Shown: positions 15,595 through 27,689 of the stretch, piece after piece | Numbering within the stretch: the stretch's first letter is position 1 | How the letters are laid out: every line of letters starts with the position of its first letter | Source of the DNA: Streptomyces sp. TS71-3 | GTDB lineage: Bacteria; Actinomycetota; Actinomycetes; Streptomycetales; Streptomycetaceae | Length of the DNA: 64,000 nucleotides | Direction of reading: 5' to 3' | NCBI RefSeq assembly: GCF_018327685.1 | Contig: NZ_BNEL01000001.1 | Coordinates: forward strand, 1-64,000 | Notes under the pieces: model-generated | The model's database searches: none | What the model was told of the DNA's origin: nothing | The model's input: only the letters and a program-made list of their open reading frames with translations | Program-made: the position numbers and the translations under genes

Positions 15595-15702
15595 ATCGGG
15601 CACCGGATATTTCGGTGCCCGAAGTTTCTTCTGCGCACCCCCTTGCCGAGGTCCCGGGGCCGGAGTAGTTTCCCCGTCGTCCGAAAGGTTCGGGCACCGG
15701 AA
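15595..15702 (+). promoter_or_regulatory. Repeated GGGCACC operator boxes upstream of marR
   Basis: CGGGCACCG (15597-15605) and CGGTGCCCG (15613-15621) form a perfect 9-bp inverted repeat around GATATTT, and TTCGGGCACCGGAA (15689-15702) repeats the motif right before the ribosome binding site. A further look-alike TCGGGCACCCCGAA sits at 16265-16278, before the transporter gene. This arrangement suits autoregulation by the MarR protein and control of the downstream operon. Confidence 0.65.
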
Positions 15703-15717
15703 AGTACGGAGGGCAAA

Positions 15718-16200
15718 GTGACGTCCACGAGCACTGGGCCCGCCGAAGGCGGTGCGGACGGACCGGCGATCGGCGAGCTCGGTGAGGTACTGCTCGCGCT
15801 CGGCGGCCGCCTCACCCGGTTGCAGACGGAGATACTGGCGGGTCTCGACCAATCGTTGACGATCCGGCAGTACCGCATCCTGTCGAGGGTCCACAGCGGT
15901 CACACCTCGCTGACGGCTCTGTGCAGGCTCGCCCACCGGGGGCCGTCCACCATGTCCCAGAGCGTCGACAAGCTCGTCCAGCAGGGGCTCCTCACCCGAG
16001 GGGTCTCGGACACCAGCCGCCGCACCATGCGGCTGGGCGTGACCGACGCCGGTCTCGCCGCCCTTGAGGCGGGCGACCGGGCCCTGGGGAAGTTCACCTC
16101 GGAGATCACCGCGCGGCTCCCGGAGGAGGCCAGAGAGCTCATCCGCCCCGCGCTCCAGCAGTTGTACGCCGAGATCCAGGGCCACCTGGACAGCAGATAG
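15718..16200 (+). CDS. MarR-family regulator
   Basis: A 160-residue MarR protein. Its winged helix (about 50-115) reads TIRQYRILSRV, LTALCRLAHRGPSTMSQSVDKLVQQGLLTR and RRTMRLGVTDAG. GTG start with GGAGGG five bases upstream. The GGGCACC palindromes ahead of it are likely its own operators, and the catabolic operon beginning with the MFS gene 360 bases downstream is the obvious target. MarR proteins of this kind usually release DNA on binding an aromatic or acidic ligand. Confidence 0.87.
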   Translation: MTSTSTGPAEGGADGPAIGELGEVLLALGGRLTRLQTEILAGLDQSLTIRQYRILSRVHSGHTSLTALCRLAHRGPSTMSQSVDKLVQQGLLTRGVSDTSRRTMRLGVTDAGLAALEAGDRALGKFTSEITARLPEEARELIRPALQQLYAEIQGHLDSR

Positions 16201-16562
16201 CCGATAGCCGCACAGCGCGCCGGCACGCAGCACCGCCGGCGCCCACGCCCGGGGCGACGCGCCCTCGGGCACCCCGAACCCGGCCGCACCCGGGCCCACC
16301 GAGCAGACCGCCAGAGCCGACCGGCACCTGAGCCGGCGGGCACCCGGGCGCATCCGAGAGCCGCGAATCTCACCCGCTCACCCCCATCCGCACAGCGAGC
16401 CGCACACCCACCGCCGACACCCGCGCACCCACCGAAAGAGCCGCGCCGGGGTCGTCGCATCCAGCGCACCGGAGCACCGGCCCGACGACGGCCGGGGAAC
16501 CGGCGCACCTTCACTCCCGATCGGGGGACGGGGCGTTCAGCCACGAGGAGGTGGCAACGTTC
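16201..16562. other. Intergenic region before the transporter operon
   Basis: GC-rich, without a gene. It contains one possible regulator box (TCGGGCACCCCGAA, 16265-16278) and the ribosome binding site GAGGAGG (16543-16549) of the transporter gene. Confidence 0.5.
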
Positions 16563-18176
16563 ATGCCACGAGACAGTGCGACCACCATCAGCCCGGGACC
16601 GGCCGGGCTACTGAGCAGGCTCGACCACTCCCGCTTCACCCGCCGCCACGGCGTCATCTACGGAACGGCGCTGGTCGGACACTTCCTGGACGGGTTCACC
16701 ATCAACCTGACCGGTGTCGTCCTGCCCGGCGTCATCCCGGCCTTCCACCTCAGCAGCAAGGAGGCCGGCTACCTCAGCTCCGTGCTCTTCGCCGGCATGC
16801 TCGTCGGCGCCGCGGTCGCGGGCGCGGTCTCCGACCGGTTCGGCCGCAAGGTGCCGCTCGCGATCTGCCTGCTGGTCTTCGGCGGGTTCTCCGTGCTCGC
16901 CGCCTGCGCCTGGGACTACCCGTCGCTGATGACGGCACGGTTCTGCCAGGGCATCGGCCTGGGCGCCGAGATCGCCGTCGTCCTGCCGTACATCACGGAA
17001 TTCGTGCCGGCCCGGCACCGCGCACCACTGGTGACCTCGGCCACCGCCGCCTGGCTGATCGGCCTCCCGGTCGCCGCCGTGGTGGGCGCCGCGCTGGTGC
17101 CCGCGCTGTCGTGGCGCGCGATGTTCGTGGTCGGCACGGTGCCCGTGCTGATCAGCCTCGTCATCCTCGCCGTGCTGCCCGAGTCGGTGCGGTACCTGCT
17201 GCGCAGGGGCCGGCTGGACGCGGCACGCGACGTCGTCGACTCGCTCGCCGTCGAGCCGCCCGCGTCCGCCCGGACAGAGGCGTCCACCCGGGCCGAGCCG
17301 TCTGCCGCCGCCACCGTCACCGCCTCCGCACCCGCCGCCCCGCGGGCCGCCGGCCACGACACCGTGCTCCCCGAGGAGGAGGGCTCGTCGCGCAGCTCCG
17401 CGGGCTCGGTGTTCCGGCTGCTGGCCGCGCGCTACGCACCGTTCACCCTCTCCCTCTGGTTCATGGAGCTGTGCGCCGGCGCCTTCCTCTACGGGCTCTC
17501 CACCTGGCTCCCCTCCATCCTGGAGAAGCGCGGCAACAGCCTGCTCGGCAGCCTCACCTACACCGCGATCATCACCGCCACCGGCGTGGTCGGGGCCCTG
17601 CTCGCCGGGCATCTGGCGAGCAGGATCGGGCGGCGCCTGACCATCGGCCTCTCGTTCGTGCTGAGCGGCGTGTTCTGCCTGCTGTGGGGCGCGGTCGACT
17701 CGACGGGGGCCGTGGTGCTGCTGGGCTGCTGCGCCACGTTCTTCGGCAGCGGGCTCGCCGGCAGCACCCTCTTCGTCTACGCGAGCGAGCTGTACCCGAC
17801 CGTGAACCGCGCCACCGGCCTCGGCTGGGCGGCCGCCTGGCAGAAGGCGGGCGGGCTGATCATCCCGACGGTGATCGGCTGGATCCTCGCGGCGCACGCG
17901 CCTGGCTACACGTTCTTCGTCCTCTTCGCGGGCGTCTCGGTGCTCGCCGGCATCTCCGGGCTGCTCGTCACGTTCGAGACCCGGGGCAGGACCGTCGAGC
18001 AGATCACCGCGGACATCGCGGCCCGGTCCGGCATCCGGCCCGGCGCCCCGCTCCCCGCGTCCGCCACCGCCGGCGCCTCCCACGGCGCCCGCACGGCCTC
18101 CCCCACCTTGGCCACCGACCTCTCCGCCCCGGAGCCCACCGCACCGTACGACCCCGAACAGGCAGGTGAAGGATGA
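16563..18176 (+). CDS. MFS transporter, aromatic-acid/H+ symporter-like
   Basis: A 537-residue, 12-helix MFS protein. Motif A between helices 2 and 3 is GAVSDRFGRKVPLAI. The opening HFLDGFTINLTGVVLPGVIP resembles AAHS/sugar-porter-type importers. The central loop between helices 6 and 7 is lengthened by an Ala/Thr/Glu-rich low-complexity stretch (about 235-265). It probably imports the substrate of the following enzymes. The next gene starts within its last codons (GATGAC overlap, 4 bases), so it is in the same operon. The alternative start at 16551 lies inside the ribosome binding site. Confidence 0.86.
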   Translation: MPRDSATTISPGPAGLLSRLDHSRFTRRHGVIYGTALVGHFLDGFTINLTGVVLPGVIPAFHLSSKEAGYLSSVLFAGMLVGAAVAGAVSDRFGRKVPLAICLLVFGGFSVLAACAWDYPSLMTARFCQGIGLGAEIAVVLPYITEFVPARHRAPLVTSATAAWLIGLPVAAVVGAALVPALSWRAMFVVGTVPVLISLVILAVLPESVRYLLRRGRLDAARDVVDSLAVEPPASARTEASTRAEPSAAATVTASAPAAPRAAGHDTVLPEEEGSSRSSAGSVFRLLAARYAPFTLSLWFMELCAGAFLYGLSTWLPSILEKRGNSLLGSLTYTAIITATGVVGALLAGHLASRIGRRLTIGLSFVLSGVFCLLWGAVDSTGAVVLLGCCATFFGSGLAGSTLFVYASELYPTVNRATGLGWAAAWQKAGGLIIPTVIGWILAAHAPGYTFFVLFAGVSVLAGISGLLVTFETRGRTVEQITADIAARSGIRPGAPLPASATAGASHGARTASPTLATDLSAPEPTAPYDPEQAGEG

Positions 18177-19453
18177 CCTCCGCCCCCTCCCGCACACCAG
18201 GTACCGCCTCCCGGGCGCCCGCCCTCGACCCGGCCGACGCCGCCGAGCGCGCCCTGCGCCACCAGAAGGTCCGGGACGCGATGGCCGAAGAGGGCCTGGA
18301 CGCCCTGATCGCCTTCGCGCCCGGCTGGCGCAGGGAGAACGTCCGCTACTTCACCGACGCCCGCCTCACCGGCACCGCGTCCTTCGTGCTCTTCCCCGCA
18401 TCCGGATCCGCCTCCGCCGAGGTGTGCGCGTTCTCCACGCGCCGCGCCGACCTGCCCGCGCTCAGGGCGGCCGGCTGGGTGGACCACGCGGCCGTGCTCG
18501 ACGCCCACGACCCGTCCGCCCTGACCGAGCCGCTGCGCGACCTGCGGCCGCGGCGGGTGGGCGTGGCCCACCTGGAGCTGCTGCCGGGGCTGCTGGCCGA
18601 GGCGCTGCGCCGGGCCCTGCCGGACGCGGAGCTGGTCTCGGCGAGCGCCCTGATGGACCGGGTCCGGATGGTCAAGAGCGACTGGGAGCTGGCCAGGATG
18701 CGGCGCAGCGCCGCCGTCTGCGCGGCGGGCTGGCAGGCGTTCGTGGACGTCCTCGAACCGGGCCTGCCCGAGTACCGCATCGTCGCCGAGGTGGAGGCGG
18801 AGATCAAACGGCTCGGCGCCGAGGACAACTTCATGCTGATCGCCTCCGGCGGCGACGAGGTGCGCGGCATGACCGCCCCGACGCCCCGCTCCCTGGAGGC
18901 GGGCGACATGGTGCGCACCGAGCTGACCCCGCAGATGGACGGCTACTGGCTCCAGATCTGCCGGTCCGCGGTGGTGGGCCCGCCGAGCGACGGGCAGCGC
19001 AGGTCCTTCGACCTCTTCAACGAGTCCGTGGAGGCCGGCATGGCCGCCACCAGGCCCGGCGTCACCGCGCACGACGTCGCCAAGGCGCAGAACGACGTCT
19101 TCCGCAAGTACGGCTACGGCGAGTACTGCACCAGCAAGTACACCCGCGTGCGCGGCCACGGCCACGGGCTGCACCTGGACGAGACGCCGATCATCGAGGG
19201 CAACGAGACCGTGCTGCCCGAGAACGCCGTCTTCATCATCCATCCCAACACCTACACCCCGCTGGCCGGCTACCACGTGCTGGGCGACCCGGTCCGGGTG
19301 ACCAAGGACGGCCCCGAGGTGCTGATCGCGACGGAACGCAAGCTGTTCCACTCCGACAAGGGCAGCTCAGCGGGGCGTGCGGGAGCCGCCGGTGCGCCGG
19401 CCGGAGCCGCCGAGGAACCCGGAACCCCCTCCGGAAAGGAGAGCGCGGCATGA
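18173..19453 (+). CDS. M24-family creatinase-like hydrolase
   Basis: A 426-residue protein: creatinase N-terminal domain (about 25-165), then a pita-bread M24 domain (about 170-400). His329 in GHGHGLHLDETP is kept, but positions that hold metal in Xaa-Pro aminopeptidases are changed. GDMVRTELTPQ has Glu for the first Asp, YWLQICRS has Gln for the second, FIIHPNTY has His for Glu, and VLGDPV lacks the last Glu. Creatinase and some ectoine-hydrolase-type members likewise lack metals and cleave C-N bonds in small amides. The substrate is unknown. A Gly/Ala-rich tail follows the fold. It overlaps the next gene by 4 bases. Confidence 0.85.
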   Translation: MTSAPSRTPGTASRAPALDPADAAERALRHQKVRDAMAEEGLDALIAFAPGWRRENVRYFTDARLTGTASFVLFPASGSASAEVCAFSTRRADLPALRAAGWVDHAAVLDAHDPSALTEPLRDLRPRRVGVAHLELLPGLLAEALRRALPDAELVSASALMDRVRMVKSDWELARMRRSAAVCAAGWQAFVDVLEPGLPEYRIVAEVEAEIKRLGAEDNFMLIASGGDEVRGMTAPTPRSLEAGDMVRTELTPQMDGYWLQICRSAVVGPPSDGQRRSFDLFNESVEAGMAATRPGVTAHDVAKAQNDVFRKYGYGEYCTSKYTRVRGHGHGLHLDETPIIEGNETVLPENAVFIIHPNTYTPLAGYHVLGDPVRVTKDGPEVLIATERKLFHSDKGSSAGRAGAAGAPAGAAEEPGTPSGKESAA

Positions 19454-20592
19454 AGCGCGGACTCGTGGTGCTCGACCCGGACGAGGTGCCCACCGAGGAG
19501 TGGGCCGAGCGCGTCGGCGGCCTCCAGAGCCGCCTCGCCGACGAGCGGGTGGACCTGGCACTCGTCTACGGGGACGTCTTCGCCTCCGACGACATCGCCT
19601 ACCTCACCAACCTCTGCATCTACTGGAACGAGGGCGTGCTCGCCGTTCCGGCCGACGGCGAGCCGGTGTTCCTGACGAAGCTCTCGCCGCGGGTGCACCC
19701 CTGGATGCGGCGCGTGTCGACGGTCTCGCGGATCGAGAGCGGCCGGCAGTTCGGCGCGCTCGCCGCCAAGCTGGCAGAGGGCCGCGAGGCGGGCACCGTC
19801 GGCCTGGTCGACGCGCCGCTGTGGCCCGAGCCCGTGGTGGCCGAGCTGCGCGCCGCGCTGCCCGGCTGGGAGCTGCGCGAACTGCCCGGCCTCGTGCGGG
19901 AGCGGCGCGCCGTGCCGTCCCCGGCCGAGGTGGCGCTGCTGCGCACCGCCGCCCGCGTGGTGGGCGAGGCCGCGGACACCGCCGCCGGCGCCGTACTCGG
20001 CACGCAGGACCGGGTGGCCACCGTGGAGCGGATCGTGCGCGGCGCGGGCTTCCTCGACGTCCAGGTGAACACCGCGGACGCGACGGACGGTGCCGAGTGC
20101 GTGCAGGTCACCGGCCAGTACCGCACGTTGTGGGTGCACGCCTCCCGGATCGCGGGCGGCGCCGGGACGGACTGGGCCGGAACGCTCCAGGACGCGCTGG
20201 ACCGCGCGGTCGCGGCGGCACGTCCGGGCGCCACCGGAGCCGACCTCGCCGCCGCGGCCGGCCCCGCGCTCGACCGGCTGCCGGCCGGCACCGACGCCCA
20301 GGTGACCTGGGTCGGCCAGACCGACCTGGCGTCCGCGGGGGAGTACCGCCCCGCGACCGCGGACACCCCGCTGGCGGCCGGCGCCGCGGTGGCCGTCACC
20401 GTCGACGCCCTGCTGCCCGGCGGCGGCTACGCGGCGCTCGCGGACACCGTCCTGGTCACGGCGGACGGGCCCGAGCGGCTCACCGCGGCCGGATCCGCCG
20501 CGGACGGCGAGGCCGCCACCCCGGCCGCATCCGGCCACGACACCACCAGCACGAACGGGGCCGCGCGCCCCGACGGGAGGTCAGCGCAGTGA
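19450..20592 (+). CDS. Divergent M24-fold partner protein
   Basis: 380 residues with a creatinase-like N-terminal domain (ASDDIAYLTNLCIYWNEGVLAV resembles the NVRYFTDARLTG region of the preceding protein) and a shortened M24 domain in which none of the usual metal or His ligands can be found. The C-terminal 35 residues are low complexity. It may be a non-catalytic subunit pairing with the preceding hydrolase, which is inference from adjacency. ATGA overlaps link it to both neighbours' translation. Confidence 0.75.
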   Translation: MKRGLVVLDPDEVPTEEWAERVGGLQSRLADERVDLALVYGDVFASDDIAYLTNLCIYWNEGVLAVPADGEPVFLTKLSPRVHPWMRRVSTVSRIESGRQFGALAAKLAEGREAGTVGLVDAPLWPEPVVAELRAALPGWELRELPGLVRERRAVPSPAEVALLRTAARVVGEAADTAAGAVLGTQDRVATVERIVRGAGFLDVQVNTADATDGAECVQVTGQYRTLWVHASRIAGGAGTDWAGTLQDALDRAVAAARPGATGADLAAAAGPALDRLPAGTDAQVTWVGQTDLASAGEYRPATADTPLAAGAAVAVTVDALLPGGGYAALADTVLVTADGPERLTAAGSAADGEAATPAASGHDTTSTNGAARPDGRSAQ

Positions 20593-21668
20593 GGATCCTG
20601 TCCAACGACGACGTTCAGAAGGTGCTCTCCGCCGAGGAGTGCCTGGACGCCCTGCAGACCGCGTACCGGGAGCTGACCCGGGGCGAGGGCGCCAACCGGC
20701 CGCGCAACCACACCTACTTCCCGGTGGAGGACGAGCGGTACCCCGGCTTCCGCTACCGCTTCAAGTCGCAGGAGGGCGGCAACGTCTCCAGCGGCGTGTG
20801 GGCGCTGCGCATCACCTCCGACCTGGCGGGCGTCGAGACCCTGCCCAGCGGGGTGCAGCGCCGCCGGCTGATCCCGGCCGCGCCCGGCGAGCGGTACGTG
20901 GGCCTGGTCACGCTCTACAGCCTGACCACCCTGGAGCCGCTGGCCATGCTCCACGACAGCTGGATCCAGAAGATGCGCGTCGGCGCGACCTCCGCGCTCG
21001 GCATCCGCGAGATGGCCCGCGAGGACGTGACCGTGGCCGGCATGTTCGGCTCCGGCTGGCAGGCCGAGGCGCACCTGGAGACGCTGCTGCTGGTCCGCCC
21101 GTCGGTCGAGGAGGTACGGGTCTACAGCCCGACCGCCGAGCACCGGGAGACGTTCGCGAAGACCTGGAGCGAGCGCACCGGGCGCCGGATCGTCGCCGTG
21201 GACCACCCGCGGGACGCCGTCTCCGGCTGCGGGGTCGTGACCTGCGCGACGGCGACCATGGAGCCCTGCTTCGAGGGGGCCTGGCTGGATCCGGGCACCC
21301 ATGTCACGGCGATCACCTCGCCGGACGGCACCGCGACCCGCCGCGAGCTCGACGACGCCACCTTCGACCGCGCCGACCGCATCGTCGTCCTCTCCCGCGA
21401 GCAGGTCCACCACGACAAGCAGTACGACATCCTCGGCCCCGTCGAGCGGGGCCGGATGTCCTGGGAGGACATCCGCGAACTGGGCGAGCTGCTGACCGGC
21501 GACGCGCCGGGACGCCGCTCGGACGACGAGATCACGGTGTTCGCCAACAACACCGGCATGGGCGTGCAGTTCGCGGCGGTGTGCTCGCGGGCGCTGGCCC
21601 TGGCCGAGGAGCGTGGCCTGGGCCACGAGGTGCCGACGGGGTGGTTGCTGGAGGAGACCAGTCCCTGA
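20589..21668 (+). CDS. Ornithine cyclodeaminase/mu-crystallin-family dehydrogenase
   Basis: 359 residues of the OCD/mu-crystallin fold. The dimerisation region contains KMRVGATSALGIREMA and the Rossmann part VAGMFGSGWQAEAHLETL (about 150-167), an NAD(P)-binding loop. Family members reduce cyclic imines, make alanine or lysine-derived imino acids, or act in ectoine use (EutC). GTG start overlaps the preceding stop (GTGA). In this operon it probably handles an amino or imino acid released by the M24 hydrolase; the exact reaction is unknown. Confidence 0.85.
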   Translation: MRILSNDDVQKVLSAEECLDALQTAYRELTRGEGANRPRNHTYFPVEDERYPGFRYRFKSQEGGNVSSGVWALRITSDLAGVETLPSGVQRRRLIPAAPGERYVGLVTLYSLTTLEPLAMLHDSWIQKMRVGATSALGIREMAREDVTVAGMFGSGWQAEAHLETLLLVRPSVEEVRVYSPTAEHRETFAKTWSERTGRRIVAVDHPRDAVSGCGVVTCATATMEPCFEGAWLDPGTHVTAITSPDGTATRRELDDATFDRADRIVVLSREQVHHDKQYDILGPVERGRMSWEDIRELGELLTGDAPGRRSDDEITVFANNTGMGVQFAAVCSRALALAEERGLGHEVPTGWLLEETSP

Positions 21669-21726
21669 GACGGCGGGCATGCAAAAGCCCGTCCGGCGAT
21701 CGCAGCGCGACATAGGAGCACACGCA

Positions 21727-22251
21727 ATGAGTCCCACACCCCCATCCCGTGTAGGCGGAAATACCATCACTTTCGGTGACAACGTCAACACCGACGTCAT
21801 CATCCCCGGCCGCTACCTCGTCAGCATCGACCCGGCGGAGCTGGCCACGCACGCCTTCGAACCCCTCGGGCCGGAGGTCCAGAAGCAACTCCAGGCCAGC
21901 CAGATCGTGGTAGCCGGACGGAACTTCGGCTGCGGCAGCGCCCGTGAGCAGGCCGCGAGCTGCCTGATCGGGGCCGGGGTCAAGGCCGTCGTCGCCGTCT
22001 CCTTCTCCCGTGTCTTCTTCCGCAACGCGATCAACACCGGTCTGGTCGCCGTCGAGTGTCCACAGGCTGTGGAAGCTCTGGCCGCCGCGGGCGGCGAAGG
22101 GGACATGTGGGTCGATTACGACGAGGGCAGCGTGGAGGTCGCCGGAGGCACGTTCGGCTTCGCGCCGTACCCGCAGGGGCTGCGGGAGATCCTCCAGGAC
22201 GGCGGCCTGATCCCCCATCTGATGCGTACGCAGGAAGGAGCGACCTCGTGA
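21727..22251 (+). CDS. LeuD-type (aconitase swivel) small subunit, copy 1
   Basis: A 174-residue swivelling-domain protein with the canonical loop GRNFGCGSAREQA (about 61-73), FGDNVNTDVIIPGRYL at the start and FFRNAINTGL. It pairs with the LeuC-type subunit encoded next, with which it shares a GTGA overlap. Such heterodimers are hydro-lyases: isopropylmalate, homoaconitate, citramalate or dimethylmalate isomerase/dehydratase. The location in a catabolic-looking operon argues against leucine synthesis. Confidence 0.88.
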   Translation: MSPTPPSRVGGNTITFGDNVNTDVIIPGRYLVSIDPAELATHAFEPLGPEVQKQLQASQIVVAGRNFGCGSAREQAASCLIGAGVKAVVAVSFSRVFFRNAINTGLVAVECPQAVEALAAAGGEGDMWVDYDEGSVEVAGGTFGFAPYPQGLREILQDGGLIPHLMRTQEGATS

Positions 22252-23621
22252 CCGCCACCAGCAGCGCCGTGGGGACGGCCGGCGCCACCGGCGCCACCCG
22301 CCCCCCCAGGACCTTCGCGCAGAAGGCGATAGAGCGCGCCTCGGGCGAGTCGGGGCTCGTTCCCGGGCAGATCGTGGACGCCTACCCCGATCTCTACATG
22401 AGCCACACCGCGAGCTGGCGCTGCATCCGCACCCTGGAGCGGATGGGCACCGACCGGCTCTACGACCCCGACCGGGTCGCCATGGTCATGGACCACATCT
22501 CCCCGGCCATGAACGCCAAGACGGCCGCCGACCACCAGCTGTGCCGGCAGTTCGCCGACCGGATGGGCATCAAGAACTTCTTCGACGTCAACGCCGGCAT
22601 CGCCCACATCGTCCTGATGGAGAACGGCCTGGTCAGGCCGGGGCAGTTCATCATCGGCACCGACTCGCACTCCACCATCTACGGAGCGCTCGGCGCCTTC
22701 GGCACCGGTGTCGGGTTCAGCGAGATCACCGCGGCCTGGGTGACCGGCAAGCTGTGGGTGAAGGTGCCGGAGTCGGTGCGGATCGAGATCGACGGCGAGC
22801 TGCCCCCGGGCTCGTACGCCAAGGACGTCATGCTCAAGCTGATCGGCGACCTGGGCGCCGACGGGCTGACGTACTGCTCGGCGGAGTTCACCGGCTCCTA
22901 CGTCACCTCCCGGAGCGTGTCGGAGCGCATGACGTTCTGCAACCTGGCGATGGAGATGGGCGCGAAGAACGCCTACGTCGCCCCGGACGCCGTCACCCGC
23001 GCCTACCTGGGCGACGAGGCCGGCGTCCCGGAGGACGGCTACGAGGTGCTGCTGCCCGACGAGGGCGCCGTCTACCGCGACACCGTGCGGCTCGACGGAT
23101 CGGCGCTGACGCCGCAGATCGCCGTGCCGCACACCGTCGACAACGTCGTCGGCGTCGACGAGGTCAAGGGCACCAAGCTGGACCAGGTCTTCATCGGGTC
23201 CTGCGCCAACGCCAAGTACGACGACCTCGCCATCGCCGCCGAGGTGCTGGCCGGGCACAAGGTCGCGCCGGGCGTGCGGCTGGTGGTGACGCCCGCGTCG
23301 AGCACGGTGATGGCCAAGGCGTCCTCCACCGGCGTGCTCGCCACCCTGATCGAGGCCGGCGCGATGATCACCAACGCGGGCTGCGGCGCCTGCGCCGGCA
23401 ACGGCGGCGCGATGGCCGACGGCGAGGCCACCCTGTCCACGGCGAACCGCAACTTCCAGGGCCGGATGGGCAGCTACGAGTCCCGGATCTACCTGGGCAG
23501 CCCCGCCACCGCCGCGGCCTCCGCGATCACGGGCGTGATCACCAACCCGGCCGAGGTGCTCGCGGACGCGGCGCCGGGCGCCGCCAGGGCCGCCCACCGT
23601 CCGGAAGGAGCCGGCGCGTGA
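22248..23621 (+). CDS. LeuC-type (aconitase) large subunit, copy 1, Fe-S-binding
   Basis: 457 residues. The three [4Fe-4S] ligands are present: Cys319 in FIGSCANAKYDD, and Cys379 and Cys382 in NAGCGACAGN. GTDSHSTIYGALGAFGTGVG is the substrate-side His loop. An N-terminal 20-residue Ala/Thr stretch precedes the fold. With the preceding small subunit it should form a working hydro-lyase, probably acting on a branched hydroxy-di- or tricarboxylate. It overlaps both neighbours by 4 bases. Confidence 0.9.
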   Translation: MTATSSAVGTAGATGATRPPRTFAQKAIERASGESGLVPGQIVDAYPDLYMSHTASWRCIRTLERMGTDRLYDPDRVAMVMDHISPAMNAKTAADHQLCRQFADRMGIKNFFDVNAGIAHIVLMENGLVRPGQFIIGTDSHSTIYGALGAFGTGVGFSEITAAWVTGKLWVKVPESVRIEIDGELPPGSYAKDVMLKLIGDLGADGLTYCSAEFTGSYVTSRSVSERMTFCNLAMEMGAKNAYVAPDAVTRAYLGDEAGVPEDGYEVLLPDEGAVYRDTVRLDGSALTPQIAVPHTVDNVVGVDEVKGTKLDQVFIGSCANAKYDDLAIAAEVLAGHKVAPGVRLVVTPASSTVMAKASSTGVLATLIEAGAMITNAGCGACAGNGGAMADGEATLSTANRNFQGRMGSYESRIYLGSPATAAASAITGVITNPAEVLADAAPGAARAAHRPEGAGA

Positions 23622-24898
23622 ACCTCGTCGAGAAGATCCTGGCCAGGGCGAGCGGCCGGACGTCCGTCGAGCCGGGCGAGATCGTGATCGCCGGCGTGGA
23701 CCGGCTGCTGATGCACGACCTCAGCGGCTACCTGACGTCGGAGGTGTACGAGAAGCGGGTGGGCCGCCCGATCCCGGACCCCGAGCGGGTGGTGATGGTC
23801 TTCGACCACCACTTCTCGCCGCCCACCGAGCGCCAGGCGGACATCCTCCAGCACAACCGCGCCTGGGCCCGGGGGCACGGCATCACCCTCATGGACTGCG
23901 GAAGCGGCAACCTCCACCACGCCGCCGTGCGCGGCGGGCACGTGCGGCCCGGCATGATCGTGGTCGGCTCGGACAGCCACACCCCGGTGCACGGCTCGCT
24001 CGGCGCGCTCGCCGTGGCGCTCGGCAACGACTCGCACGCGGGCACCGTGCTGCCGTACGGGAAGGCGTGGTTCCGCGTGCCGGAGACCGTCCGCATCGAG
24101 CTGCACGGCGCCCCGCGGCCCGGCACCACGCCGCGGGACATCGCCCTGTGGCTGTGCGCGGAGATCGGCGAGGGCGCGCTGAACTACAAGGCGCTGGAGT
24201 TCACCGGCCCCTACGTCAAGCAGGCGTCGTTCTGGGACCGCTGGCTCTTCCCGCTGCTCACCGTCGACCTGGGCGCCAAGTGCGGGTTCGTCGAGCCGGA
24301 CGAGGTCACGGAGGCGTTCCTGCGGACGCTGCCGGGCGGGGCCGGGCCGCAGGGCGATCCGCTGCTGCGGGGCGACGGCGCGCAGGACGCGGCGAGCGTC
24401 CTCCGCTACGACATCAGCGAGGTGCCGCCCCAGGTGGCCTGCCCGCCGACCGTCGGCAACACGAAGGCGGTCGCCGACGCGGCCGGCGCCCGGGTCGGCT
24501 GGGCCGAGCTGGGCGGGCACGGCGGCGGGCGCCTGGAGGACATCCGCGCCGCGGCCGAGGTGCTGGACGGCCGCCGCGTCCATCCGGACACGCGGCTGAA
24601 CATCGTGCCGTCCAGCCGGGAGGTGTTCGCGGAGGCGCTCCGCGAGGGCCTGGTGGCGTCGCTGCACGAGGCCGGCGCGACGTGGTTCCCGCCGAGCACC
24701 GGGTCCAACCAGGCCATCAACATGGGTGCGCTGTCCGCCGGCGAGGCCATGATCTGCACCCACTCCAGGAACTTCCCCGGCCGCAACGGCAGCACGGAGG
24801 CCGGCGTGTACCTGGCGTCCGCGGCCACCGTCGCGGCCTCCGCGGCGGCCGGCGAGATCGCCGGGGCGCCGGCCGGCAGCGAGAGGAGGGCGGCGTGA
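23618..24898 (+). CDS. LeuC-type large subunit, copy 2, lacking the Fe-S cysteines
   Basis: 426 residues clearly homologous to the LeuC family (GSDSHTPVHGSLGALAVALG, RNFPGRNGS). At the three cluster-ligand positions it has His301 (LGGHGGGRLED), Ser360 and Ser363 (PPSTGSNQ) instead of Cys. It therefore cannot bind a normal [4Fe-4S] cluster. It may use another metal, act as a regulatory subunit, or have evolved a cluster-free reaction as in the AcnX branch. The reading frame is intact, with normal codon use and 4-base overlaps, so it is not a pseudogene. Confidence 0.88.
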   Translation: MNLVEKILARASGRTSVEPGEIVIAGVDRLLMHDLSGYLTSEVYEKRVGRPIPDPERVVMVFDHHFSPPTERQADILQHNRAWARGHGITLMDCGSGNLHHAAVRGGHVRPGMIVVGSDSHTPVHGSLGALAVALGNDSHAGTVLPYGKAWFRVPETVRIELHGAPRPGTTPRDIALWLCAEIGEGALNYKALEFTGPYVKQASFWDRWLFPLLTVDLGAKCGFVEPDEVTEAFLRTLPGGAGPQGDPLLRGDGAQDAASVLRYDISEVPPQVACPPTVGNTKAVADAAGARVGWAELGGHGGGRLEDIRAAAEVLDGRRVHPDTRLNIVPSSREVFAEALREGLVASLHEAGATWFPPSTGSNQAINMGALSAGEAMICTHSRNFPGRNGSTEAGVYLASAATVAASAAAGEIAGAPAGSERRAA

Positions 24899-25443
24899 TG
24901 GGTGGCACGACAGGGATCCAGGGCGGGCCGGACGGCAAGACCGGGAGCCGTTTCGAGGGCCCCTGCTGGACGTTCGGGGACAACATCCCCACCGACCAGC
25001 TGATCAAGTCCCGTTACGTCTTCGACCCGATGGACGTGATCGTCCAGCACGTCCTGGAGGACATGGACCCGGAGTTCCCGCGCCAGGTCGAGCCCGGGGA
25101 CGTGGTGGTGGCGGGCCGGCACTTCGGCCAGTCGTCGGGGCGCGCGATCGCCGCGAAGGCGCTCCAGGCCACCCGGATCGGCTGCGTGCTCGCGGAGAGC
25201 TTCGCGCGCACCTTCTACCGCAACTGCTTCGAGATCGGCCTGCCCGCGATGGAGGTCGAGGGCATCACGGAACTGGCCCGCAAGGGCGACCGGCTGGCGG
25301 TGGACATCACCACGGGAACGGTCACCAACACGGCGACCGGCGAGAGCCGCGTCGGCCGCCCGGCCGACCCGTTCCTCGTCGAGATGCTGGCGGCGGGCGG
25401 GCTGATCGCGCTGGCGGAGCAGCGGCCGGAGCTGTTCGCCTGA
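24898..25443 (+). CDS. LeuD-type small subunit, copy 2, with altered swivel loop
   Basis: 181 residues from ATG 24898 (GTG 24895 is an alternative; GGAGGG lies 8-13 bases upstream). The fold is LeuD-like (FGDNIPTDQLIKSRY, TFYRNCFEIGLP). The substrate loop reads GRHFGQSSGRAIA instead of GrNFGcGSSREhA, so Asn, Cys and Glu positions have changed while Arg is kept. This matches the unusual LeuC partner and suggests the pair changed together. It is the last enzyme gene of the operon. Confidence 0.86.
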   Translation: MGGTTGIQGGPDGKTGSRFEGPCWTFGDNIPTDQLIKSRYVFDPMDVIVQHVLEDMDPEFPRQVEPGDVVVAGRHFGQSSGRAIAAKALQATRIGCVLAESFARTFYRNCFEIGLPAMEVEGITELARKGDRLAVDITTGTVTNTATGESRVGRPADPFLVEMLAAGGLIALAEQRPELFA

Positions 25444-25685: not shown

Positions 25686-25813
25686 CGGACGGATACGACG
25701 CGCCTCAGGAGGGATACGACGCGTCGGCCAGGACGGATACGAGGCGCGCGTCAGGACGGTACGACGCGCCTCAGGACGGATACGAGGCGCGCGTCAGGAC
25801 GGATACGACGTCA
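25686..25813. repeat. About 22-bp tandem repeat overlapping the 3' end of the GH55-like gene
   Basis: Six units of GGACGGATACGACGCGCCTCA-like sequence (alternating variants). The innermost unit encodes the last residues (SYPS) and stop of the minus-strand gene, and the outer ones lie beyond the stop and repeat the same TATCCGTCCTGA. Confidence 0.85.
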
Positions 25814-27689
25814 GCATCGCCAGATTGCACTCCGCGTCCGACGGACCGCCCGTGGTGTTGACGACGTGGGCGATCGTGCCCTGGCCGCCGCCCAGCGAGA
25901 ACGTGATCATGCTGTGCAGCCGGACGCCCGGCGTGCGCGGCACGGCGAAGGCGCGGTCGGCGACGATGGTCGCGTCCTCGGCGAAGATGCAGTAACTGCC
26001 CAGGCCCCACGCCTCGTGCCTGCGGACGTGGTCGGCGACCTGGTAGGCGGGGAAGCCGCGGTGCGCGCCGTCCATCCAGGCGGCCTGGTTCGGCGGGTCG
26101 TACGGCATCTCGTTCTGGAAGAAGTACGTCCGGCCGCCCTCGCCGTTCCACTGCACCTGCGCCTTCTGGTGGTGCTCCACGAACAGGCCGTAGACGGTGA
26201 CGTCGTCGCCGTTCACCACCAGCCCCTCCTCGGAGGTGTTGGTGGTCCAGCCCACGCCGGTGCCGTGGTCGGCGCGCCACAGCCAGGTGTTGTCGATGAT
26301 GACGTCCGAACTGTTCACGACCACGGACTGCTTGGCCTTGCCGACGCCCGCCCCGCCGATCCGCACGAACACGTCGTGCAGGGAGGTCGGGTCGGACGTG
26401 TGGCGCCCCCGGGCGCCGTCGGGGCCGACCCGCACCAGCGCGTCGGAGACCTGCTCGCCCGCGTCCACGAGCAGTCCGGCGACCGTGACCCCGTCGACGT
26501 CCGCGATGTCGAGGGCACTCGCGCCGCCCCCCGGCACGAGCGTGGCGAGGCCGAGGCCGAGCACGACGGTGCCGGCGCGCGTCACCGTCAGCGCCTTGTC
26601 GAGGTGGTACACGCCGGGCGTGAGCAGCAGGTGCTTGCCCTGTGCCAGCGCGGAGTTCAGCTCGTCGGCGGTGGTGCCCTCCTTCGCGATGTGGAAGTCG
26701 GCGATGGGCAGCGACTTGCCCTCCGGTCTGCGCCCCTCCCAGCTCGTGCCATGGCTGTCGGTGCGCACGGCGGGCACGAAAACGCGGTACGCGCCGTCGC
26801 CGTCCACGTACAGGAACGGCTTCTCGCGGACCACCGGCGTGCGCGGTACCGAGGTGTACGTCGGCGCGGGGAAGGTGGTGGCGGGGGCGTTGTCGACGCC
26901 GACGAAGACCATGTTCCAGTTGGAGCCGAGCCACTGCCCCACCATGGAGTTGCGGGTCACCCACTGCTGCTGGGTGCCCGAGTTCACCTGGCCGGTTATC
27001 TTGCAGTCCGCGATGAAGCCGCCGCTGGACCAGCCGCCGTCGTCGAGCTGGATGTTGCCCAGCAGGTAGATGCGGCGGAAGAAGGTCGCCTGGGAGACCG
27101 CCCAGCGGGCGGTGCCGCTGCGGGGCACCAGGTTGATGTTCTCCACGCCGCGCCAGAAGTTGGTCAGCGCGCCGTGGCCGTGCGCGTCGGCGTCGGCGTG
27201 CACGGCGTTGTTGATGGTCGCCGCGGCCGGCTGGATCCCGAGGCCCGACACCTGCGTGTAGTAGCCGACGTTGATGTCGACGTCGTAGCCGCCCGGCTTG
27301 AACAGCAGCGCGTACCGGCCGGATCCGAACTGCGCGCCGGCCTGCTGCGCGTACACCTGGTCCGCGATGGACTGGATGGTCTTGACGGGCGTCGAGGAGT
27401 CGAAGACGTAGACGTTGGGGCCGAAGTCCGGTTCCCCGGCGGGGTGCTGGGCGGGCGGCGGCGCGTCGGCCGCGGCCTTGCCCGCGGCCTTGGCGGGCGC
27501 GGCCTCGCGGGGCGCGGCGGACGCGGGGGAGCCGGCGGCGAGCCCGCCGCCGGCGGCGACCGAGGTGCCTGCGGCCACCGCGCCGGCGGAGGCGAGGAAT
27601 CCGCGCCGGCCGAGGGCGGCGCGGCCCGGAGCGGGGTCCGGGTCCTCCGGCGTGGAGCGCGGGGTGTTCCCGGGGGAAGCAGGAGCCAT
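25794..27689 (-). CDS. Secreted GH55-like beta-helix protein (Tat signal)
   Basis: 631 residues. A twin-arginine signal (GRRGFLASAGAVAAG, Arg28-Arg29, cleavage probably near residue 58) is followed by an Ala/Pro linker and a right-handed beta-helix protein. The sequence FGPNVYVFDSSTPVKTIQSI, LLFKPGGYDVDINVGYYTQ and RTPVVREKPFLYVDGDG resembles Streptomyces family 55 exo-beta-1,3-glucanases; relatives are often mislabelled adenylyl cyclase. Activity on beta-1,3-glucan is inferred, as I cannot confirm catalytic residues. I chose the ATG at 27689, which has AAGGGA upstream; the frame runs to 27749. Exported folded through Tat. Confidence 0.8.
   Translation of the reverse strand: MAPASPGNTPRSTPEDPDPAPGRAALGRRGFLASAGAVAAGTSVAAGGGLAAGSPASAAPREAAPAKAAGKAAADAPPPAQHPAGEPDFGPNVYVFDSSTPVKTIQSIADQVYAQQAGAQFGSGRYALLFKPGGYDVDINVGYYTQVSGLGIQPAAATINNAVHADADAHGHGALTNFWRGVENINLVPRSGTARWAVSQATFFRRIYLLGNIQLDDGGWSSGGFIADCKITGQVNSGTQQQWVTRNSMVGQWLGSNWNMVFVGVDNAPATTFPAPTYTSVPRTPVVREKPFLYVDGDGAYRVFVPAVRTDSHGTSWEGRRPEGKSLPIADFHIAKEGTTADELNSALAQGKHLLLTPGVYHLDKALTVTRAGTVVLGLGLATLVPGGGASALDIADVDGVTVAGLLVDAGEQVSDALVRVGPDGARGRHTSDPTSLHDVFVRIGGAGVGKAKQSVVVNSSDVIIDNTWLWRADHGTGVGWTTNTSEEGLVVNGDDVTVYGLFVEHHQKAQVQWNGEGGRTYFFQNEMPYDPPNQAAWMDGAHRGFPAYQVADHVRRHEAWGLGSYCIFAEDATIVADRAFAVPRTPGVRLHSMITFSLGGGQGTIAHVVNTTGGPSDAECNLAMLTSYPS

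Follow-up and report, generated by a model that had tools for sequence, protein, structure and literature searches.

The window, a 64,000-nucleotide stretch of Streptomyces sp. TS71-3 (contig NZ_BNEL01000001.1, positions 1 to 64,000; source genome of 9.79 Mb in 3 contigs), contains a MarR-family regulator, an MFS transporter and seven enzyme genes on one strand, most of them overlapping by 4 bases (Table 1). Five junctions are of this kind (MFS/M24a, M24a/M24b, M24b/OCD, LeuD1/LeuC1 and LeuC1/LeuC2), while LeuC2 and LeuD2 overlap by 1 base; gaps of 58 and 362 bases separate OCD from LeuD1 and marR from the MFS gene, respectively. Gene coordinates and Pfam matches thus agree with the layout described in the initial annotation of this DNA. 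The same annotation placed the transporter in the AAHS family, and this holds as the nearest affinity but not as membership: TIGR00895 is the best NCBIfam match of the protein, at 264.2 bits against a cut-off of 418.55. The predicted ornithine cyclodeaminase (OCD) family enzyme is present, scoring 130.1 bits against PF02423 (cut-off 24 bits); it reaches the cut-off of no NCBIfam equivalog, and it is the best conserved of the operon's enzymes. Adjoining the operon on the - strand lies a gene for a 631-aa protein with no Pfam match (window positions 25794-27689).

Table 1. Genes and sequence features of the locus, in window coordinates
Feature	Position	Strand	Pfam match
Operator-like inverted repeat TCGGGCACCG-N7-CGGTGCCCGA, upstream	15595..15623 (repeat 15596-15622)		
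Proposed MarR operator TTCGGGCACCGGA, just 5′ of the marR ribosome-binding site	15689..15701	+	
MarR-family regulator, 160 aa	15718-16200	+	MarR_2
MFS transporter, nearest aromatic acid/H+ symport subfamily	16563-18176	+	MFS_1
M24a, creatinase/ectoine-hydrolase-type, proposed catalytic subunit	18173-19453	+	Peptidase_M24 and Creatinase_N
M24b, degenerate M24 paralog, proposed partner subunit	19450-20592	+	Creatinase_N only, below cut-off
OCD/mu-crystallin-family enzyme, 359 aa	20589-21668	+	OCD_Mu_crystall
LeuD1, small subunit, LeuD/DmdB subfamily	21727-22251	+	Aconitase_C
LeuC1, large subunit with three iron-sulfur cysteines	22248-23621	+	Aconitase
LeuC2, large subunit lacking these three cysteines	23618-24898	+	Aconitase
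LeuD2, small subunit, partner of LeuC2	24898-25443	+	Aconitase_C

Homologous loci were fetched through M24b alone, using two peptide patterns against 84,980 species genomes. This gave 22 named loci, a lower bound, and because M24b was the only bait, the other six enzyme genes are the real test of conservation. By tblastn with the window's proteins, all seven enzyme genes are present in all 22 named loci, and their order and strand are identical in 21 (22 of 23 when the window is counted); in the exception, a Solirubrobacterales assembly (L033), the seven genes are adjacent in a different order. Besides this assembly, the hosts are two Bacillota and members of Streptomyces, Actinomadura, Amycolatopsis, Geodermatophilus, Saccharopolyspora and Pseudonocardia, with one of the Pseudonocardia loci (L025) borne on a plasmid. 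A marR match was obtained in 19 of the 22. M24b is broken into two reading frames in L018, and LeuD1 was overlooked by the gene caller in 5 of the 23 loci, leaving a conservation count of 18, although tblastn finds it in all 23. The initial annotation had proposed a single transport-plus-degradation unit with its own regulator and suggested a survey of gene order; retention of the gene set far beyond this strain, in almost unchanged order across various soil bacteria, supports that proposal. We conclude that this is a real, conserved operon which almost certainly functions as one unit; its function in outline is inferred below. The operon is also rare and patchily spread. At E 1e-100, LeuC2 is present in 2 of the order's 293 genomes, its own included; at the E 1e-90 level, the class gives 1 of 394 genomes, namely its own. 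In the homolog lists for LeuC2 (the best 120 of 1972) and M24b (the best 120 of 364), the nearest homologs come from Streptomyces sulfonofaciens, with 90% for LeuC2 and 82% for M24b, in keeping with a Streptomyces-type genome; a third list comprised the best 120 of 371. A search for the OCD enzyme on plasmids at E 1e-60 found none, and searches of open-licence papers, judged by titles and the openings of abstracts, found no description of the gene set.

Transporter and regulator are the variable parts of the unit. An MFS homolog is detected by tblastn in 13 of the 22 named loci, and in six (L017, L019, L020, L022, L025 and L026) a three-gene ABC system takes its place, with its NMT1 domain confirmed in L019 only. 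Since the direction of an MFS protein is not readable from sequence, the enzymes might instead build an uncommon amino or hydroxy acid for export by the MFS protein; actinobacteria, Streptomyces among them, are prolific producers, and antibiotic pathways include homologous isomerases of the aconitase type. We regard such a biosynthetic operon as improbable, given that the ABC system that replaces the MFS protein has a substrate-binding protein and is hence of importer type, that the operon extends to Bacillota and Solirubrobacterales, and that the neighbouring proteins examined, a minority of all neighbours, included no PKS, NRPS or other assembly enzyme.

Upstream of marR lies a motif, TTCGGGYACCGRA, which we propose on sequence grounds as the MarR operator. 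Derived from the sequences of the 14 MFS-type loci, it is found exactly before marR in 13 of these same loci and with one mismatch in L023; there are 15 exact copies in their 332,840 bases, every one upstream of marR. The window contains three copies at up to one mismatch, all at this locus, a number reached in 1 of 100 shuffles, and one arm of the upstream inverted repeat (15611-15623, - strand) is an exact match. Across the 9.79 Mb genome there are 5 exact copies, 2 of them at the operon, compared with 0 for the reversed control. As regards a wider MarR regulon, the three extra copies adjoin unrelated-looking genes, and no hidden front-end genes were found in this way. In the six ABC-type loci, MarR is more distant (37–41%) and no copy of the motif core is found next to marR.

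The two M24 proteins do form a creatinase-fold pair, as previously noted, but M24b is degenerate and barely recognised by sequence profiles, scoring 21.0 bits against Creatinase_N, just under the Pfam cut-off of 22. M24a has the M24 fold of creatinase/EutD-type enzymes. At positions 250, 261, 357 and 371, which together with H329 we take to be the prolidase metal-ligand positions, E250, Q261, H357 and G371 stand in place of Asp, Asp, Glu and Glu, each in 23 of 23 loci, and H329 is retained in all 23. Hence, four of the five prolidase ligands are replaced and the histidine is kept, as in creatinase/EutD-type enzymes; an annotated DoeA likewise has Glu at the position of E250, the first ligand position. 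The closest folds to the M24a model are ectoine hydrolase EutD (Z of 37.2) and creatinases (36.3, 36.2 and 36.0), ahead of prolidases by just 0.2 to 2 Z units, with the model being poor at 321–343, the region containing H329. M24b, taken by itself, is equally close to EutD and to prolidases.

The two paralogs differ in the domain that is conserved. Mean pairwise identity rises from 0.567 in the N domain to 0.823 in the C domain of M24a, and from 0.514 to 0.646 in a control prolidase. M24b reverses this pattern (N 0.621, C 0.430), and an alphaproteobacterial M24b-like set gives N 0.584 and C 0.446 (after removal of 5 sequences under 335 aa from the 120 listed). This mirror-image conservation suggests an M24 heteromer with one composite active site, pairing M24a, which is of the type without metal ligands, with a half-degenerate M24b. 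Creatinase and ectoine hydrolase are homodimers of one gene, whereas M24a and M24b come from two genes that have diverged and conserve opposite domains; the pair may be a simple example of how a homodimeric enzyme becomes a heteromer in which only one site works. Rhizobial M24a/M24b operons contain neither OCD nor LeuCD genes, so the two M24 genes also occur together outside the pathway of this operon.

The ectoine operon (eutD/doeA, eutE/doeB, eutB, eutC) also combines a metal-ligand-free M24 protein with an OCD-family enzyme, a transporter and a regulator, and the modelled fold of M24a resembles EutD. A divergent route for ectoine or hydroxyectoine utilisation, built on EutD, EutB, EutC and EutE, could therefore be envisaged, but we consider it very unlikely. 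M24a falls far below the EutD/DoeA models (70.1 versus 613 bits for TIGR02993, 71.6 versus 575 for NF038259), as does the OCD enzyme for EutC (117.4 versus 471.65, TIGR02992), and none of the nine genes matches DoeB/EutE or EutB in Pfam or NCBIfam. M24b separates M24a from OCD, and the one annotated ectoine locus examined has no LeuCD pairs. The present operon thus differs in lacking the deacetylase and EutB and in having two LeuCD pairs and a degenerate second M24 protein.

The initial annotation read the last four genes as two LeuCD-type dehydratases. Two LeuCD pairs are indeed present, but LeuC2 lacks the iron-sulfur cysteines, which makes two ordinary dehydratases unlikely. In LeuC1, the iron-sulfur ligands C319, C379 and C382 are found in 23 of 23 loci. 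An alignment with LeuC1, the LeuC-like protein of the genome and further sequences gives the corresponding positions of LeuC2; these are occupied by H301, T361 and N364 in all 23 loci and in each of the 120 homologs listed (the best of 1972). In the same 120 homologs, D63, H64, H100, D119, H121, R384 and R389 are kept throughout. In our reading, based on motifs, D119, H121 and H100 would correspond to aconitase Asp165, His167 and His147. These three aconitase residues surround the open iron (PMC8184944). C94, C222 and C275 are common in LeuC2, and all three occur together in 21 of 23 loci and in 96 of the 120 listed homologs; with joint presence in only these 96, an alternative three-cysteine site is not conserved in LeuC2, although one is conceivable in most members. 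The sequence rules out the canonical cluster in LeuC2; an unusual iron-sulfur cluster in its place is conceivable.

Profile scores and phylogeny also set LeuC2 apart. LeuC1, LeuD1 and LeuD2 pass NCBIfam subfamily cut-offs of the LeuCD/HacAB/DmdAB family, LeuC1 those of three subfamily models, whereas LeuC2 lies under every NCBIfam cut-off listed. Neither large subunit reaches the leucine-biosynthesis LeuC equivalog TIGR02083 (LeuC1 389.4, LeuC2 269.5, cut-off 610.65). In a tree of 12 of the 23 loci, LeuC1 and LeuC2 form one clade each (100/100), with broadly congruent inner branching and stems of 0.81 and 1.88 changes per column, respectively. Of the eight PF00330 matches in the genome, four come from LeuC1 and LeuC2, both matched as split halves, while the remaining four lie elsewhere and include a full-length LeuC-like gene at C1:2182691; a housekeeping role in leucine biosynthesis or as aconitase was therefore rejected. 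Thus, the gene order is shared with other strains and the LeuCD pairs have company from four other aconitase-family genes, where the initial annotation would have counted a strain-specific order and an absence of such genes against its reading.

Given the missing cluster ligands and the long stem of LeuC2, it is also conceivable that LeuC2D2 is non-catalytic and serves only to stabilise or regulate LeuC1D1, as M24b might do for M24a, leaving one dehydratase step; M24b already provides an example of a degenerate paralog beside an active relative. We view this as rather unlikely. LeuC2 has 142 invariant positions across the 23 loci, including the non-cysteine active-site residues, which exceeds the needs of a scaffold and argues against a dead enzyme. 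Moreover, LeuD2 keeps S79, S80 and R82 (with the catalytic-loop Ser and Arg among its conserved residues), and the conservation score of LeuC2 (0.731) is near that of LeuC1 (0.774), unlike that of M24b (0.513).

Among known enzymes, aconitase X (AcnX; cis-3-hydroxyproline or phosphomevalonate dehydratase) resembles LeuC2 in being an aconitase-fold dehydratase with changed cluster ligands, and type I AcnX genes sit near OCD-family reductases. However, LeuC2 has no match to the AcnX domain PF04412 at E 0.001 (LeuC1 scores 19.7 versus a cut-off of 31.5 bits) and lacks a conserved cysteine trio. AcnX still binds its cluster by three cysteines at other places, and in the aconitase-superfamily enzymes described in the same source, AcnX included, the cluster is bound through three cysteines (PMC8184944). 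A literature search for cluster-less relatives, judged by titles and the openings of abstracts, found nothing on point. With the cysteines replaced and the rest of the active site kept, the LeuC2 clade offers a natural test of the need for the cluster.

Neighbouring genes in some relatives provide clues to the substrate. Five of the 22 loci (L014, L015, L018, L023 and L030) have a VanA-type Rieske oxygenase and its reductase next to the block; the Rieske type was tested in L023, where the protein matches Pfam VanA_C and has dicamba O-demethylase as its nearest solved structure, and the reductase was named by eye. Between oxygenase and reductase in L014, L015, L023 and L030 sits a 58-aa protein with no Pfam match (L023:5371-5547). 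Upstream in L013 are PrpD-family, Asp/Glu/hydantoin racemase-family and flavoprotein genes and an allantoinase-like amidohydrolase, a relative of which occurs in L017 together with cyclase-family and citrate-lyase-type proteins and, by eye, PrpD. In L021 and L023, an ABC system and a HyuA-type protein follow directly 3′ of LeuD2, and these proteins are 37–62% identical to counterparts in a plasmid locus of Neorhizobium galegae with the order LysR, HyuA, HyuB, M24a, M24b, PrpD, ABC, amidohydrolase. This locus, for which no described function was found, likewise has adjacent M24a and M24b genes (M24a at about 37% identity), with PrpD for LeuCD, LysR for MarR and no OCD; the best model for its HyuB is caprolactamase, below cut-off. 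Only a minority of the loci have these front-end genes, which the window's operon lacks, ring-opening enzymes included. As the neighbours are ring-opening or amide-handling and polycarboxylate enzymes, they hint at a substrate class, namely a cyclic amide or ureide yielding a polycarboxylate. Breakdown of an amide or cyclic amino compound, as originally suggested, would thus be favoured, and the initial interpretation as a whole is partly supported. Other substrate leads, namely citrazinate/cis-aconitamide (for which the literature search returned no paper), ectoine, hydroxyproline-type dehydration with OCD reduction, and nicotinate, could not be substantiated.

A MarR-controlled import-and-degradation operon is, in our view, the best explanation of the whole, held tentatively and with a little under an even chance of being right. 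An acidic nitrogen compound would enter through the MFS protein (in other lineages, through an ABC system of the NMT1 type) and would lift MarR off its operator. In some lineages, a lactamase-, allantoinase- or Rieske-type front end would first make the open-chain substrate. The M24 heteromer, its one active site built from the M24a C-terminal and the M24b N-terminal domain, would then hydrolyse a C–N bond (amide, ureido or amidine) without metal, like creatinase and ectoine hydrolase. The next step, an NAD(P)-dependent imine/amine redox reaction or deamination, would fall to the OCD enzyme. LeuC1D1 would hydrate or isomerise the resulting di- or tricarboxylate skeleton using its iron-sulfur cluster, and LeuC2D2 would catalyse a second step without one, with the product entering central metabolism. 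It is possible, if somewhat doubtful, that this is a new pathway with two novelties at once: an obligate heteromeric creatinase-type M24 hydrolase sharing one site, and a cluster-free aconitase-superfamily hydro-lyase with a His/Thr/Asn site beside its cluster-bearing paralog. Most surprising are the loss of the cluster site in LeuC2 and the split M24 pair. The operon also provides a compact, testable lead to a soil substrate, and the predicted operator could be used as a reporter.

Finally, relatives of these genes occur in other settings. On plasmids, LeuC2 relatives amount to 33 records, all below 60% identity, and the plasmid LeuC proteins from Peribacillus and Skermanella loci (n = 3) have the cysteines. 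A Skermanella mucosa plasmid carries two adjacent LeuC and two LeuD genes near fatty-acid or polyketide-type genes (L036:8673-12323); both LeuC proteins have the cluster cysteines, so this arrangement differs from that of LeuC1 and LeuC2. An Agrobacterium plasmid contains an operon with LeuC-family, isopropylmalate-dehydrogenase-family and M20 peptidase genes (L079:1850-7152). Elsewhere in the genome of TS71-3, two M24 proteins of another subtype, of 419 and 474 aa, are encoded about 7 kb apart (L044, C1:4858445; L045, C1:4851261). In the Neorhizobium galegae VafX2 plasmid, the annotation splits each of HyuB, M24a, M24b and PrpD in two (L034:10342-15511 versus L037:10341-15508), while in N. 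galegae HAMBI 540 each is a single frame; the VafX2 splits may reflect sequencing errors or decay.
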